From Gemmatimonadota bacterium (lineage in GTDB: Bacteria; Gemmatimonadota; Gemmatimonadetes; Longimicrobiales; Gaopeijiaceae): a stretch of 33,592 nucleotides of DNA. The DNA is taken from assembly GCA_009692105.1 (NCBI GenBank), contig SHZS01000016.1, forward strand, positions 1 to 33,592, read 5' to 3'. The number at the start of each line of letters is the position of its first letter. Position 1 is the first letter of the stretch. Of the stretch, positions 4,936 to 32,037 are shown in pieces. A program made the translations under genes and the position numbers. The notes under the pieces are model-generated. The model had not been told where the DNA came from and searched no databases. It worked only from the letters and a program-made list of their open reading frames with translations.

Positions 4936-5420
4936 GGGGTTGGGCTCAGGCGCCAGAGCGCCCTCACGCGCGCGACCTCCTCCCCCGCCTCGTCTCGGAT
5001 GCTTGCGGTGACCCACTCCTCCGAGGACGCACCGGGTGGAAGGGCCGGTGTTGTCCACCGAGCTTCCGCCACGAGGCGCCCGCGGGCCTTCTTCATGTAC
5101 TCGGACTCGAGACGGACCACGATCCCCCGGATCCCGGCCGGGACGCCGGTTAACGCTGCGAGCCCGCTTGTGACCTCGCCCAGGTTCGTGAGAGCGACGG
5201 CGTGAATAGATCTCAGATGGTTTCGCACCTTTCGTCGGTCGCGGAGCACGACGCGGGCTCGGCCCGGCTCGAGGTGCTCGACGCGTGGCCCGATGGTGCC
5301 GCTGTACGGGACCCTCATCCCTAGGAGCAGGGAGAAGAGGAGCTTCCCTCCGGGAAGGGGCCGAAGCCCGGACCAGAGTCGGAGGAGTTGAGCCCCGGGG
5401 GCGGCGGGGGAGCTCGGCAT
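4932..5420 (-). CDS. DUF4442 hotdog-fold protein (putative thioesterase)
   Basis: The product is about 162 residues, a normal length for a single hotdog domain. The characteristic block [21 protein letters not shown] contains the N-H-x-x-S-I-H-A pattern of DUF4442 and PaaI-like proteins, followed by the strand [19 protein letters not shown] and the C-terminal [19 protein letters not shown]. These folds bind acyl-CoA or acyl-ACP, so a thioesterase or acyl-binding role is likely; no substrate can be read from the sequence. The ATG at 5420 is the best start ([16 protein letters not shown]). It is translationally coupled to the monooxygenase (TTGA overlap), so the pair may act on the same lipid-like substrates. 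It is divergent from asd across 132 bases. Confidence 0.8.
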
Positions 5421-5552
5421 TCCCGGAAGATCCGCCGTGCGCTCGGGGGCGGCAACCGCCGCGCCGACGGGCTTGGCTTGGCTGGCCGCCGGGTTAGCTT
5501 CCGAGGTACAGCTAGAGTACGGAAACGTCGGCGGAGAGGAGGAGACCCGGAG

Positions 5553-6650
5553 ATGGGGGGGGACCGTCGGATCCCGGTAGGGGTCCTGGGTGCGACCGGG
5601 AGCGTGGGTCAACGCTTCGTGCAGCTTCTTCACCGACACCCATGGTTCCGGGTGGCGGCGGTCACGGCGTCCGAGCGTTCGGAGGGGAAGCGCTACGGTG
5701 ATGCGGTGCGGTGGGTCCAAAACGAACCGCTCGCTTCTGAGATCGCTGAGCTCCCCGTGCTCCCCACCGCGCCTGGACTGGACGTAAAGGTCGCTTTCTC
5801 CGCGTTGGACTCGGGTGTGGCGGGCTCGGCCGAGACGGAGTTCGCCGAATCCGGAGTGATGGTCTTCTCGAACGCGAAGAACCACCGGATGGACCCGGAC
5901 GTTCCCCTCCTGGTCCCCGAGGTGAACCCGGACCACCTGGCCCTTCTGGAGAAGCAGAGCTTCCCGAAGGGGGGCGGGATCGTCACGAACCCCAACTGCT
6001 CCACGATCGGACTCGTGATCCCGCTTCGAGCGCTTCACGAGGCCTTCGGTGTGAACCGGGTCCACGTGGTGACTCTCCAGGCCCTCTCCGGAGCTGGCTT
6101 ACCGGGGGTCGCCTCCATGGAGATCATGGACAACGTGGTGCCCTTCATCGACGGGGAGGAAGAGAAGCTCGAGACTGAAACTCGGAAAATCCTTGGCTTG
6201 CTGAACGGGCAGGGCGTGGAGGATGCGGAGATCGTCGTGAGCGCACAGTGCACTCGCGTCCCCGTCCTGGATGGGCACCTCGAGATGGTCTCGATCGGGC
6301 TCGACCGACCGGCTACACCCGAGGAGGCGATGGAAGTCATGGCTTCCTTCCGGGGTGTGCCCCAGGAGATGGAGCTCCCCTCCGCTCCGAAGAGGCCCGT
6401 TCACCTGCTCTCCGGGAAGGACCATCCGCAGCCCCGCCTTCACCGGGACACCGAGGGAGGGATGGCCGTCTCGGTAGGAAGGGTCAGGCCATGCCCCCTA
6501 CTGGACCTCCGGATGGCGATTCTCTCGCACAACACGATCCGTGGAGCGGCCGGAGGGGCCCTTCTCTGCGCGGAGCTCGCCCTGGCCCAGGGGTGGGTGC
6601 CTGGTATGAGCGGTCCTGGGCGTGAACAGACCCTGACGAGGCGCCGATGA
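5553..6650 (+). CDS. asd: Aspartate-semialdehyde dehydrogenase, archaeal/fungal type
   Basis: The product (365 residues) reduces aspartyl phosphate to aspartate semialdehyde with NADPH, the branch point to Lys/DAP, Met and Thr. The N-terminal Rossmann motif is [17 protein letters not shown] (residues 10-26). The catalytic Cys149 lies in [16 protein letters not shown]. Two marks place it in the archaeal/fungal class rather than the common proteobacterial class: [20 protein letters not shown] (106-125) and LSGAGLPGV. The substrate-binding HPQPRLHRD block and the C-terminal [12 protein letters not shown] are present. The ATG at 5553 follows GGAGAGGAGG; upstream in-frame codons lie in the divergent promoter region. 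The last codons overlap proC as ATGA, so the two amino-acid genes are coupled. Confidence 0.93.
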
Positions 6651-7570
6651 CTACGAAAAAGCAGTTGACCCGGAAGCGAAAGACCCCTTCGAAGTCGATC
6701 GCATCGAAGTCGATCGCGTCGAAGTCGATCGCGTCGAAGTCGATCGCGTCGAAGTCGATCGCCGTCATTGGGGCGGGGAATCTGGGGAGCGCGATCGCAC
6801 GCGGGATCGTGCGCGCCGGTCTCCGGCGCGCACCGGAAGTACTGCTGACGCGCCGGCACCCGGAGGAGTTGGCCGAGCTTCGGGCTCAGGGCCATCCCGT
6901 CGGGCGCGACAATGCGAAGTTCGCCTCCGCGGCCCGGATCGTGATCCTCGCGGTCCAGCCGAAGCACACCGCTCGAGTCCTCGCGGAGCTGGCTCCTGTC
7001 CTGGATCCCAAGCGGCATATTCTCGTCTCGACCCTGACCGGAGTCTCGATCGAGGGTCTGCGGAGGCACGTGGGGAGCGAGGTGCCCGTCGTGCGCGTGA
7101 TGCCGAACCTGGGGATCCAGACGCTGAACTCGATGACCTGCTTGGCCCGGGATGCTCCTTCCGAGCCGGCCTTTTCGGAGGTCGAGGCGCTCTTCGCCGG
7201 GCTTGGCGAGACGGTCCGGATAGAGGAAGCCAACATGGGGGCGGCGACCGCGCTCTGCGCTTGCGGGATTGCCTTCTTCCTGCGGGCGATCCGTGCGGCG
7301 GCCCAGGGGGGGATTCAGATCGGCTTCCACGCGGAGGAGGCGATCCGCATGGCGGCCCAGACGGCGAAGGGGGCCGCGGAGCTCTTGCTGGTGAACCGGA
7401 GTCATCCGGAAACGGAGATCGACCAGGTGACGACACCGAACGGGTGCACGATCGCGGGATTGAATGAGATGGAAAACCATGGCTTCAGCTCGGCGCTGGT
7501 CCGCGGTCTCGTGGTCTCGGCTCAGCGGGCCGGGGCGCTCGACCCGAGTCGGGACCGGGGTGGTTCTTGA
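6647..7570 (+). CDS. proC: Pyrroline-5-carboxylate reductase with repeat-extended N-terminus
   Basis: ProC performs the last step of proline synthesis, NAD(P)H-dependent reduction of pyrroline-5-carboxylate. The Rossmann start VIGAGNLGSAIARG, the AVQPKH turn, the LVSTLTGVSIEGLRRH strand, VVRVMPNLGIQ and the C-terminal dimerisation region with TPNGCTIAGLNEMENHGF are all present. The protein is 307 residues against about 270 normally. The excess is an N-terminal tail: a basic [14 protein letters not shown] followed by five copies of SKSIA, the last of which runs into the first beta strand. Only ATG 6647 and TTG 6665 are in-frame starts upstream of the fold, so the repeats are translated either way. 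The gene overlaps both asd and the DUF2203 gene. Confidence 0.93.
   Translation: MTTKKQLTRKRKTPSKSIASKSIASKSIASKSIASKSIAVIGAGNLGSAIARGIVRAGLRRAPEVLLTRRHPEELAELRAQGHPVGRDNAKFASAARIVILAVQPKHTARVLAELAPVLDPKRHILVSTLTGVSIEGLRRHVGSEVPVVRVMPNLGIQTLNSMTCLARDAPSEPAFSEVEALFAGLGETVRIEEANMGAATALCACGIAFFLRAIRAAAQGGIQIGFHAEEAIRMAAQTAKGAAELLLVNRSHPETEIDQVTTPNGCTIAGLNEMENHGFSSALVRGLVVSAQRAGALDPSRDRGGS
6689..6763 (+). repeat. Five tandem copies of a 15-bp unit inside proC
   Basis: The unit tcgaagtcgatcgcg is repeated five times without a gap. Copies differ only in the last base (a in copy 1, g in copies 2-4, c in copy 5), which is synonymous. Each copy encodes SKSIA and holds the palindrome CGATCG. The unit length is a multiple of three, so copy-number changes would keep the frame. 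Confidence 0.97.
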
Positions 7571-28314: not shown

Positions 28315-30708
28315 TCAGAATCTGAGGAGCCGAGTCACCTTGAGGGCCAGCCCGCGGTTCGTGAGCTCGGACCATCGGTCCAGGACGTCGGTGTCGCGCT
28401 CTTCCGTATAAACGAGGAAGAGCTCACTCCCAGGCGCCCACTCCCAACGGAGGCGAAAGTTTGTGCTGAAGGCGTCGGTTCCGGCGTTGTATTGGACGAG
28501 GCCGCTAACGTACATCCGAGGGGTCAGGGTGTAGGTAGCCCGGGTCACAGCCACGTGCTGATCGAAGTCACCCTGGGGAAGGGAGACCCAGTTGAAGGTC
28601 AGGCTGGGCTCGATGGAGAACTGCGGCGTCACCTCGATCCGGCCCTGGCTGAACGCCACGGAGGTCCTGTCCCCTGCATAATAGTCCGCCCGCTGGTAGC
28701 TCAAGCTGCCCGAGAAGCGACGCTGGGATCCGAAGAGGTAGCCAACCCGGAACGAGCGAGTGGAGTAGTCGCCCGCCGGAATCGTGGTACCCGAGATGCT
28801 CGCGGCCGTGAAGAGGCGCTCGAAGCTCTGGGTGTAACCGGAGCTGAAGACGTCGCTGCTCTCGAACTCGATTCCCAAGCTCACATCCTGGTCCCTTGCC
28901 TCGAGGACCCCTCGCTCCACGTTCTCGAGGTACTCGACGCCTCCCTGGAAGGAGAACTGCCGGGCCCATTCGATGGATGCGGGGCGCGGGCTGTACCGTG
29001 CGGACATCGTGCTCTGTCGGAATCCCCTCTGCCGAAGGAACCCCACCTCGGGATTGAAGTCGTCTCCAACGAAGAGGTGTCCCACGTTCGCGCCCCACGT
29101 GGCACCGGTGTACATGAGCTGTCCCCGGTAACTCTGATCGTCTCCAGTGAGCCCGTCGGTGCGTGTACCGTCCGTGTGCGTACCGGCCACGTAACCAAAC
29201 AGGTTCAGGTTCTCGTATGCGAACGAGCCGTCCAGCCCGTAGGTCTGGTTGGAGCCCATCTCGGCATCCCTGGCCTGCGAGCGGTTGGCGAAGAGCACTC
29301 CCACGCTGCTCCGGGCCAGGAGGTCCTTTCGGACCCTCAGCACAGTGAAGTTCGTGGACTCGGCTCCCGTGTCGCGGCGGTCATCGGTCTGGATGTTCAG
29401 CGCTCCCACGTCGAACGATCCGACCTTCCCGGTCAGCCGTCCGCCCCCGAGGATCGGAACCGGCTGGCCGCGGTAAAGCCCGATCTCCCGGCTGTAGAAG
29501 AGCGTGGGCACTCCTGCGGCAACACTTCCGCCCATTGCACCTCCGGCGCCGCCGCCCCCCGTCGCTGCCCCGACCCCGCCACCTCCCCCGCTACCTATTC
29601 CGAAGGCGAAGATGCCGCGTCCCTCGAGGAAGAACTCCCTCTTCTCGAGGAACGAAAGGCTGAACCGCGTCAGGTTGACCTGCTGCTCGTCGACCTCGAC
29701 CTGCGCAAAGTCGGCGTTGTACGTGAAGTCTGCCGTGAGGTTGTCTCTGATCCCGTACTTCACGTCGAGGCCGATGTCCGCGTAGCCGTCGTTCGAGACC
29801 GCCGGATCGACCGCGTTGTTCGTGCGCAGTCCGGACGTCACGTAGGGCTTCACCGCCACGTCACGCCCGGAAGGGGGTGTCTCCAGCCCCACCAGGGTTG
29901 CAGCCATCGAGATGCGGAGCATTCCCCCTGGCCCGGCGCCGGCTATGGAGAGAGGGATGAACGTCAGGTGATCCCATTCGTTCTTTCGTCGGATGATGCG
30001 CCGCAAATTGATTCCCCACACTTCCTGACCCGCACGGTAGCGCAGGGACTTGAACGGGATGGCCATCTCCACCGTCCACCCGCCTTCGAAGCGCCCCGTC
30101 CGGAGGTCGTAGACGGTGTTCCAATCCGGGTTCGAACTCCCCTCGTTCGAGATCTCGGTGTCGAAATACGCGCCCAGGGGGTTCGTGAAGAAGAGGAAGC
30201 CGTTTCGGCGGTCGTAATACGTGTCCAGCATCACCGCGAACTGGTCGTTTTGGCGAAGTTGGATCCCGTCACGCCGCATCTCGTTCGCGACCCATTCGCT
30301 CTCCGGCGCGGAGTCCCAGGCGCGCGCAGAGATGTAGACGTTGTCGTCGTCGAACCCGACCCATGCCTCCGTGAGCTCGGTCGGCTCCGCTCCCTCGTCC
30401 GGGAGCGTCTGAATGAAGTCGGAGATGGCCTTGGTGTTTTGGTAGAACGGCTCGTCGAGCACCCCGTCGATGCGGAGGGGCTCGCTGACCCTCACGGCCC
30501 GGATGGTCGTGTTGCCTTCCGCGTCACGGCTCATCACTTCGGGTGCTTCGGGTGGAGGCGGGCCTTGGATCTCCAGGCCGGATCCCTCCGCGCCTATCGG
30601 GGACTGGGCCACGGCGGCACCCGGTCGGGCGAACCACGCGGTGACGAGAAGGAGGGTGGCGGCCCCGAGTCGTAGCCCGGAGGTGCGACGGAATCGTCTC
30701 GTGTGCAT
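28315..30708 (-). CDS. DUF5916 outer-membrane protein with CBM9-like domain
   Basis: The precursor is 797 residues. A signal peptide (basic start, then ATLLLVTAWFARPGAAVAQS) is followed by a CBM9-like beta-sandwich (about 65-270: LRIDGVLDEPFYQN, AWVGFDDDNVYISARAWDS, GGWTVEMAIPFKSLRY). The rest is a DUF5916 beta-barrel with alternating aromatic strands and a terminal Phe (KVTRLLRF), as expected for BAM-inserted outer-membrane proteins. NADFAQVEVDEQQVNLTRFS and FFLEGRGIFAF are family blocks. A Gly/Ala loop (about 373-397) interrupts the barrel. The function is unknown; carbohydrate binding or uptake at the cell surface is a guess. The gene is 31 bases downstream of the pterin dehydratase gene, and a 5'-truncated paralogue lies beyond that. 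Confidence 0.9.
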   Translation of the reverse strand: MHTRRFRRTSGLRLGAATLLLVTAWFARPGAAVAQSPIGAEGSGLEIQGPPPPEAPEVMSRDAEGNTTIRAVRVSEPLRIDGVLDEPFYQNTKAISDFIQTLPDEGAEPTELTEAWVGFDDDNVYISARAWDSAPESEWVANEMRRDGIQLRQNDQFAVMLDTYYDRRNGFLFFTNPLGAYFDTEISNEGSSNPDWNTVYDLRTGRFEGGWTVEMAIPFKSLRYRAGQEVWGINLRRIIRRKNEWDHLTFIPLSIAGAGPGGMLRISMAATLVGLETPPSGRDVAVKPYVTSGLRTNNAVDPAVSNDGYADIGLDVKYGIRDNLTADFTYNADFAQVEVDEQQVNLTRFSLSFLEKREFFLEGRGIFAFGIGSGGGGGVGAATGGGGAGGAMGGSVAAGVPTLFYSREIGLYRGQPVPILGGGRLTGKVGSFDVGALNIQTDDRRDTGAESTNFTVLRVRKDLLARSSVGVLFANRSQARDAEMGSNQTYGLDGSFAYENLNLFGYVAGTHTDGTRTDGLTGDDQSYRGQLMYTGATWGANVGHLFVGDDFNPEVGFLRQRGFRQSTMSARYSPRPASIEWARQFSFQGGVEYLENVERGVLEARDQDVSLGIEFESSDVFSSGYTQSFERLFTAASISGTTIPAGDYSTRSFRVGYLFGSQRRFSGSLSYQRADYYAGDRTSVAFSQGRIEVTPQFSIEPSLTFNWVSLPQGDFDQHVAVTRATYTLTPRMYVSGLVQYNAGTDAFSTNFRLRWEWAPGSELFLVYTEERDTDVLDRWSELTNRGLALKVTRLLRF

Positions 30709-30739: not shown

Positions 30740-31072
30740 TCAGGCGAGCGTGTCGAGCCGCGCGGCGAGGATGAAGTCGTTCTCACTGAGCCCACCGATC
30801 GAGTGCGTCCAGATCCGGACCGTCGCCTTTCCCCAGGTGAGGGTGATGTCGGGGTGGTGTCCCTCGGTCTCGGCGGCCCCGCCAGCCCGGTTCGTGAACG
30901 CGAGCGCCCCGAGGAAGTCCTCGAAGGCGAACTCCCCCTCGAGATGGTGGTCATCCACCACCTTCCATCGACCCGAGACGGCCGCGAGATATGGGTCGGC
31001 GGCCTTTCCCTTGAGCGGTGGCGTGCCCTTCGGGAGCGGGGCGCAGTGACGGGAGAGGAGATCGATGGTCAT
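30740..31072 (-). CDS. 4a-hydroxytetrahydrobiopterin dehydratase (PCD/DCoH)
   Basis: The 110-residue product is a normal-length pterin-4a-carbinolamine dehydratase. It removes water from the 4a-hydroxy-tetrahydropterin made by aromatic amino acid hydroxylases. The active-site motif EGHHPDITLTWGKATVRIWTH carries His72, His73 and His90, and the FAFEDFLGALAFTNRAGGAAE helix matches the family. The ATG at 31072 shares bases with the stop of the truncated DUF5916 gene (TAATG), and the start is fixed by homology (MTIDLLSRHC). No phenylalanine hydroxylase is in the window, so its partner is elsewhere, or it serves in molybdopterin chemistry as proposed for some bacterial homologues. Its position between two DUF5916 copies is unusual. 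Confidence 0.92.
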   Translation of the reverse strand: MTIDLLSRHCAPLPKGTPPLKGKAADPYLAAVSGRWKVVDDHHLEGEFAFEDFLGALAFTNRAGGAAETEGHHPDITLTWGKATVRIWTHSIGGLSENDFILAARLDTLA

Positions 31073-32037
31073 TAGAGTCTCAGGAGCCGGGTCACCTTGA
31101 TGACTAGGCCACGGTTCGCGAGTTCGGACCATCGGTCCAGTACGTCGGTGTCGCGCTCTTCGGTGTACACGACGAATACCTCGCTTCCGGGCGCCCATTC
31201 CCAGCGGAGGCGGAGGTTCGAGCTGAAGGAGTCGCTCCCGGAGTTGTACTGAACGATAGCGCGCACGTACATCCGCGGGCTCACGCTGTAGTTCACCCGG
31301 GCCAGGGCCAGGTGCTGGTCGAAGTCACCTTGGGGAAGGGAGATCCAGTTGAAAGCCAGGGTGGGCTCGAGCGAAAGCTGTCGCAGGATCTCGATACGGC
31401 CCTGGCTGAACCCCAGCGAAGTCCGGCGTCCCGTGTAATAATCGCCCCGCTGGAAGGTCAAGGCGCCAGAGTAGGGGCGCTGCGACCCGAAGCCATAGCT
31501 AACCTGGACGTTCTTGGTCGAGTACCCTCCGGCTGCAATCGTGGTACCCAGAATGGGCGCGTCATTGAAGAGCCGCTCGAAGCTCTCCGTATAACTGGCA
31601 TTGAAGGAGTCGCTGTTCTCGAGCTCGATCCCGAAGTGCACGTCCTGGTCCCGCGCCTCGAGGACCCCCCGGCGCGCGTTCTCCAGGTATTCGACGCCGG
31701 CCTGGAAGAGGAGCCGTCGGATCCGTTCGACGGATGCCGGTCGCGGACTGTAACGTCCCGACATCATGCTCTGCCGAAACCCCTTCCGCCGGGCGAACCC
31801 CACTTCGGGGTTGAAGTCGTCCCCAACAAAGAGGTGTCCCATGTTGGCGCCCCACGTCGCTCCGTTGTAGCTGATCTGACTGCGATAACTCTTGTCATCG
31901 CCTGTGAGCCCGTCGGTACGCGTGGCTGCGAGGTAGCCGAAGAGCGTCACGTTGTCCTGGAACGCGAAGGAAGCATCCACGCCATACGTCTGGTTGGAGC
32001 CGGTCTCCGCTAGCATCTTCATCCGGAGAGGTGTCAT
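31072..32037 (-). pseudogene. 5'-truncated second DUF5916 gene (C-terminal barrel half)
   Basis: The 321-residue frame matches the last 320 or so residues of the intact DUF5916 protein at 28315-30708 closely and without gaps: ETGSNQTYGVDASFAF, NMGHLFVGDDFNPEVGFARR, LENARRGVLEARDQDV and WAPGSEVFVVYTEERDTDVL are near copies. The signal peptide, CBM9 domain and first half of the barrel are missing; similarity begins at AETGSNQ, after an unrelated MTPLRMKML. Without a signal peptide it cannot reach the outer membrane, so I call it a pseudogene. The frame is otherwise clean and ends in KVTRLLRL rather than the usual terminal Phe. Its stop overlaps the pterin dehydratase start, so the remnant may still be transcribed as a leader cistron. 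Confidence 0.85.

Follow-up and report, generated by a model that had tools for sequence, protein, structure and literature searches.

An in-frame 15-bp minisatellite at the N-terminus of a pyrroline-5-carboxylate reductase from an uncultured Gemmatimonadota bacterium

Bacterial genes carry in-frame variable segments (PMC2884548), and the coding minisatellites and VNTRs among them have units of 10-100 bp whose length is a multiple of three, arranged as near-identical head-to-tail copies within a gene so that the reading frame is kept when the copy number changes. The genes named there as carrying such repeats are those for the surface proteins SdrE, ClfB and SasG together with ftsK, whereas the array considered here lies in a biosynthetic enzyme and is seen in one genome. 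Titles and abstract beginnings of the openly licensed literature describe no tandem repeat in a bacterial ProC. The proC array has the same architecture as the known examples, with a 15-bp unit that fits the frame-keeping rule, at least three near-identical tandem copies (4.9 copies at 98% matches), and a translated (SKSIA)x5 product encoded downstream of every possible standard start. It is most likely a further instance of the known coding minisatellites, with no new mechanism, and it leaves the general picture of both ProC and bacterial minisatellites unchanged. It does provide a small and clean example of slippage adding disordered sequence at a permissive end of a housekeeping enzyme, and the array could serve as a strain marker.

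The array was found in a window of 33,592 nucleotides, the whole stretch of DNA analysed, and its features are collected in Table 1. The unit consists of TCGAAGTCGATCGC followed by a variable last base, so that the array can be written as five head-to-tail copies of TCGAAGTCGATCGCN in which N is A, G, G, G and C in copies 1 to 5. TRF reports it at 6689-6762 with period 15 and a score of 141 that exceeds those of all 20 other rows for the window, whereas the best score in 100 dinucleotide-preserving shuffles of the whole window was 71 and the mean of the maxima was 47. The array is real and far above chance. The original prediction of five SKSIA-coding copies differing at a synonymous last base is borne out by the sequence, by TRF and by the translated reading frame, although its description of the repeat as perfect holds for three of the five copies, which are identical, and not for the outer two, whose synonymous differences it had itself stated.

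Table 1. Features of the proC region (window coordinates) and other in-frame arrays from the same genome (locus coordinates; taken from the best 30 of 50 TRF rows)
Feature	Position	Strand	Description
asd ORF	5388..6650	+	directly upstream of proC
proC	6647..7570	+	pyrroline-5-carboxylate reductase, 307 aa; TIGR00112, PF14748, PF03807, ORF
ATG	6647..6649	+	likeliest proC start; overlaps asd stop (ATGA)
Leader	6647..6688	+	non-repetitive, basic, 14 residues, preceding the array
TTG	6665..6667	+	sole other in-frame start before the array
SKSIA array	6689..6763	+	five in-frame 15-bp copies; (SKSIA)x5 = ProC residues 15-39
First Rossmann strand and dinucleotide-binding loop (GAGNLG)	6758..6787	+	IAVIGAGNLG, residues 38-47
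45 bp x4.2 array	L096:5696-5884		in-frame, secreted-like protein
12 bp x3.2 array	L092:11358-11395		in-frame, signal-peptide-like N-terminus
15 bp x4.5 array	L095:19218-19284		in-frame, GSGAS-like units, 80% matches

The gene that carries the array is a complete proC by score and domain content, as had been proposed: its product scores 212.4 bits against the equivalog TIGR00112 (cut-off 196.75), matching positions 1-261 of the 263 in the model, and the Rossmann GxGxxG domain (PF03807, F420_oxidored) and the P5CR dimerisation domain (PF14748, P5CR_dimer) are both over their cut-offs. Its solved relatives are likewise pyrroline-5-carboxylate reductases. Where the protein differs from the family is at its N-terminus, with 37 residues before the first strand; family matches at this end start at residues 34-38, except for that of PF02826, which starts at residue 7 and is below cut-off. 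The expectation of an otherwise standard enzyme therefore stands as regards TIGR00112 membership, and requires amendment in that the protein belongs to a Bacteroidota-like branch, common to Bacteroidota and Zixiibacteriota loci, which has ACGIAF (in the branch, ACGIAFFLR) at the site of GSGPAY in the solved canonical enzyme (GSGPAYIYL in 5bse). Over residues of about 203-231 (window 7250-7340) the window protein reads ACGIAFFLRAIRAAAQGGIQIGFHAEEA and 5bse reads GSGPAYIYLAIEALADGG. We note that residues of the former type may reflect a difference in the substrate site.

The position of the start codons bears directly on whether the repeats form part of the protein. An in-frame stop lies eight codons upstream of the likeliest start, and no in-frame starts besides the ATG and the TTG listed in Table 1 occur from that stop to the first strand, just as the original prediction held. 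Downstream of the array, the next ATG, GTG or TTG codon is GTG 6809, which is past the GxGxxG loop (6770-6787), and an internal start that would skip the repeats was thus not found. Because every such start lies either upstream of the array or past the loop, a working enzyme has to contain the array, barring a non-standard start; if the enzyme works, the tail must be translated. The ORF directly upstream, which from its sequence we take to be asd (aspartate-semialdehyde dehydrogenase), probably has its true start at an ATG near 5553, and its TGA stop overlaps the proC ATG as ATGA. This overlap is a usual arrangement for translational coupling, and suggests that translation of the two genes is coupled. 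An asd motif is present upstream of proC at two of the 33 loci scanned, those of the window and of its closest relative (G030, L003).

An AlphaFold2 model of the protein, built on an alignment with 17 relatives, places residues 1-34 at pLDDT <50 and without secondary structure, and begins strand 1 (residues 38-41) inside the last SKSIA copy. The C-terminal domain of the model is poor (pLDDT <50 at 255-307), and the model informs on the N-terminus and not on assembly. As modelled, I38 and A39 of the last copy are in the first strand and the earlier copies hang free, in agreement with the proposal that the final copy merges into that strand. The 37 residues before the first strand contain 11 K/R and no D/E, and the tail is predicted to be disordered and positively charged.

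Comparison with relatives shows that neither the repeat nor the tail is shared. Of the 154 genomes of the order, 72 contain a match to the window protein, and of the 121 in the family, 67 contain one to TIGR00112. We compared N-termini at 69 loci, one for each of 69 of the 72 genomes, the remaining three having one partial match and two marginal ones (G061, G111 and G049). Exact lagged runs within the tail reach 44 nt in the window, whereas those at the other loci do not exceed 9 nt. None of the 52 related ProC proteins (those of 46% identity or more in which a start could be placed, a set that leaves out the window, the broken frame at L142 and a low-identity type) has a similar tail or a tandem repeat, and the extension is not a conserved one; measured from the nearest start their tails have a median length of 8 residues and a maximum of 23, while the window tail has 31, or 37 when counted from the ATG. 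A degenerate search for two adjacent SKSIA units in any codons matched at the window locus and in none of the 153 other genomes of the order. On these comparisons, in which the other genomes of order and family are all from genera different from that of the window genome, the repeat is private to that genome. The tails of the relatives are unrelated to one another in sequence and are of several kinds, including acidic (L004, L105), Ser-rich and Lys-rich ones, and this freedom to differ indicates that the N-terminal region is permissive and free to change.

The ProC family is itself unevenly represented among these genomes. There is no TIGR00112 match (E <= 0.001) in 54 of the 121 family genomes, and the family holds two very different types of ProC, about 46-73% or 26-35% identical to that of the window, a patchy occurrence which suggests losses and exchanges. 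At L142 (G118:C50:21882-22677) proC is apparently split into two frames giving two partial matches, through either a frameshift or a sequencing error.

We consider it likely that slippage expanded the array recently and in a nearly neutral manner, within a ProC tail that is disordered and permissive, and that the result is an ordinary coding minisatellite. The probability that five units would agree at their Ser, Lys, Ser and Ile codons, given window codon usage and independent choice, is about 5e-6, and the copies have most likely arisen one from another, with little time to diverge. The claim of a recent expansion, which the codon agreement and the absence of the repeat from the relatives examined both support, is thus the most likely reading. 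Slippage is the usual explanation of such arrays, and would be the mechanism of growth here; the unit holds TCGA twice as well as CGATCG, which offer points for mispairing, and the single-stranded array folds modestly better than shuffled sequences (z -2.1, with eight of 200 shuffles as good), which lends weak and not decisive support to slippage aided by hairpins. It is plausible that the native strand start was the source of the array, in which case a 15-nt stretch around the beginning of strand 1, encoding Ser-Lys-Ser-Ile-Ala and containing many short internal repeats, would have been duplicated first, and replication slippage would then have raised the copy number to five. Some 20-25 basic, unstructured residues would have been added in this way with the enzyme unchanged, and the expansion would have been tolerated because 15 is a multiple of three and the tail is outside the fold.

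A different reading of the tail is that its Lys/Ser character was selected, either for binding to nucleic acid, a membrane or a partner or for processing, with the repeat number tuning its charge. A random tail need not be as one-sided in composition as this one, and there are Lys-rich tails in three ProC proteins of another genus (g29; L015, L069, L125) and Ser-rich tails of 13-32 residues at L010, L106, L117 and L118. However, the tails of the three nearest relatives (71.6-73% identity) are 11 residues long and two of them are acidic, most relatives carry 3-13 residues of unrelated sequence, and no structure is predicted, and we regard selection for a basic tail as unlikely. A more dynamic proposal makes the array a hypervariable switch, in which the number of SKSIA units varies among cells and the length of the tail tunes a second ProC activity; a central metabolic enzyme would then be length-variable by slippage and the tuned activity would be nucleic-acid binding, membrane binding or assembly, but we consider this exceedingly improbable.

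Other readings concern the DNA and the RNA rather than the protein. The genome is a 61-contig assembly and tandem arrays are recognised as places where assembly can go wrong (PMC6868369), such that the copy number or the sequence itself could be wrong. We think this very unlikely, as 75 bp is below the usual short-read length, the different last bases in the outer copies anchor the ends of the array, and the reading frame is preserved. The repeat could also act as RNA, with proC translation set by a structure in its 5' region, and indeed the units are self-complementary and the start region of 181 nt has a folding energy of -70.7 kcal/mol. This is not beyond what shuffled sequences do, however (z-score -1.03, with 29 of 200 shuffles folding at least equally well), and the ATGA overlap with asd points to coupled translation instead; we have rejected structure in the start region as a candidate, and give a role for the repeat as RNA hardly any credence. 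We likewise rejected the unit as a dispersed repeat. With up to two mismatches it has 45 matches on both strands of the genome, against eight for a reversed-pattern control; five of these are the array and the others are single, with none in tandem among the matches listed, and the 40 single near-matches, above control as they are, are taken as a product of codon and oligonucleotide usage.

The same genome has further arrays of this sort. In a tandem-repeat survey of the window and 20 further stretches (380,592 bases, of which 347,000 were sampled, a 21% sample of the genome), three arrays among the best 30 of 50 TRF rows have three copies or more and match at 90% or better, namely the SKSIA array, the 45-bp array at L096 and the 12-bp array at L092. 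The three other arrays in Table 1 indicate that in-frame minisatellites occur elsewhere in this genome. Like the SKSIA array they have periods that are multiples of three and lie in open frames, but they are built of other units, and two of the three are in signal-peptide-like or secreted-like proteins. The array at L095 also has five-residue units inside an enzyme-like frame, presumably an acyl-ligase-like enzyme from its motifs, although its copies are more diverged than those of SKSIA.

Some further observations concern the proline route and other parts of the window. Beside ProC the genome has an ornithine aminotransferase over cut-off (535.9 bits), and across the whole genome there is no ProA match and ProB matches are fragmentary only; among four relatives (G030, G023, G115 and G032), ornithine aminotransferase is found in all four and ProB over cut-off in none. 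Judged from gene content, proline is probably made from ornithine in the window genome. Elsewhere in the window, two minus-strand ORFs (28315-30708 and 31072-32037) clearly resemble each other over their C-terminal portions (RYSPRPAS..., ...VYTEERDTDVLDRWSEL). The shorter of them, 31072-32037, is perhaps a truncated paralogue of the longer, and a small ORF (30740-31198) lies between the two.
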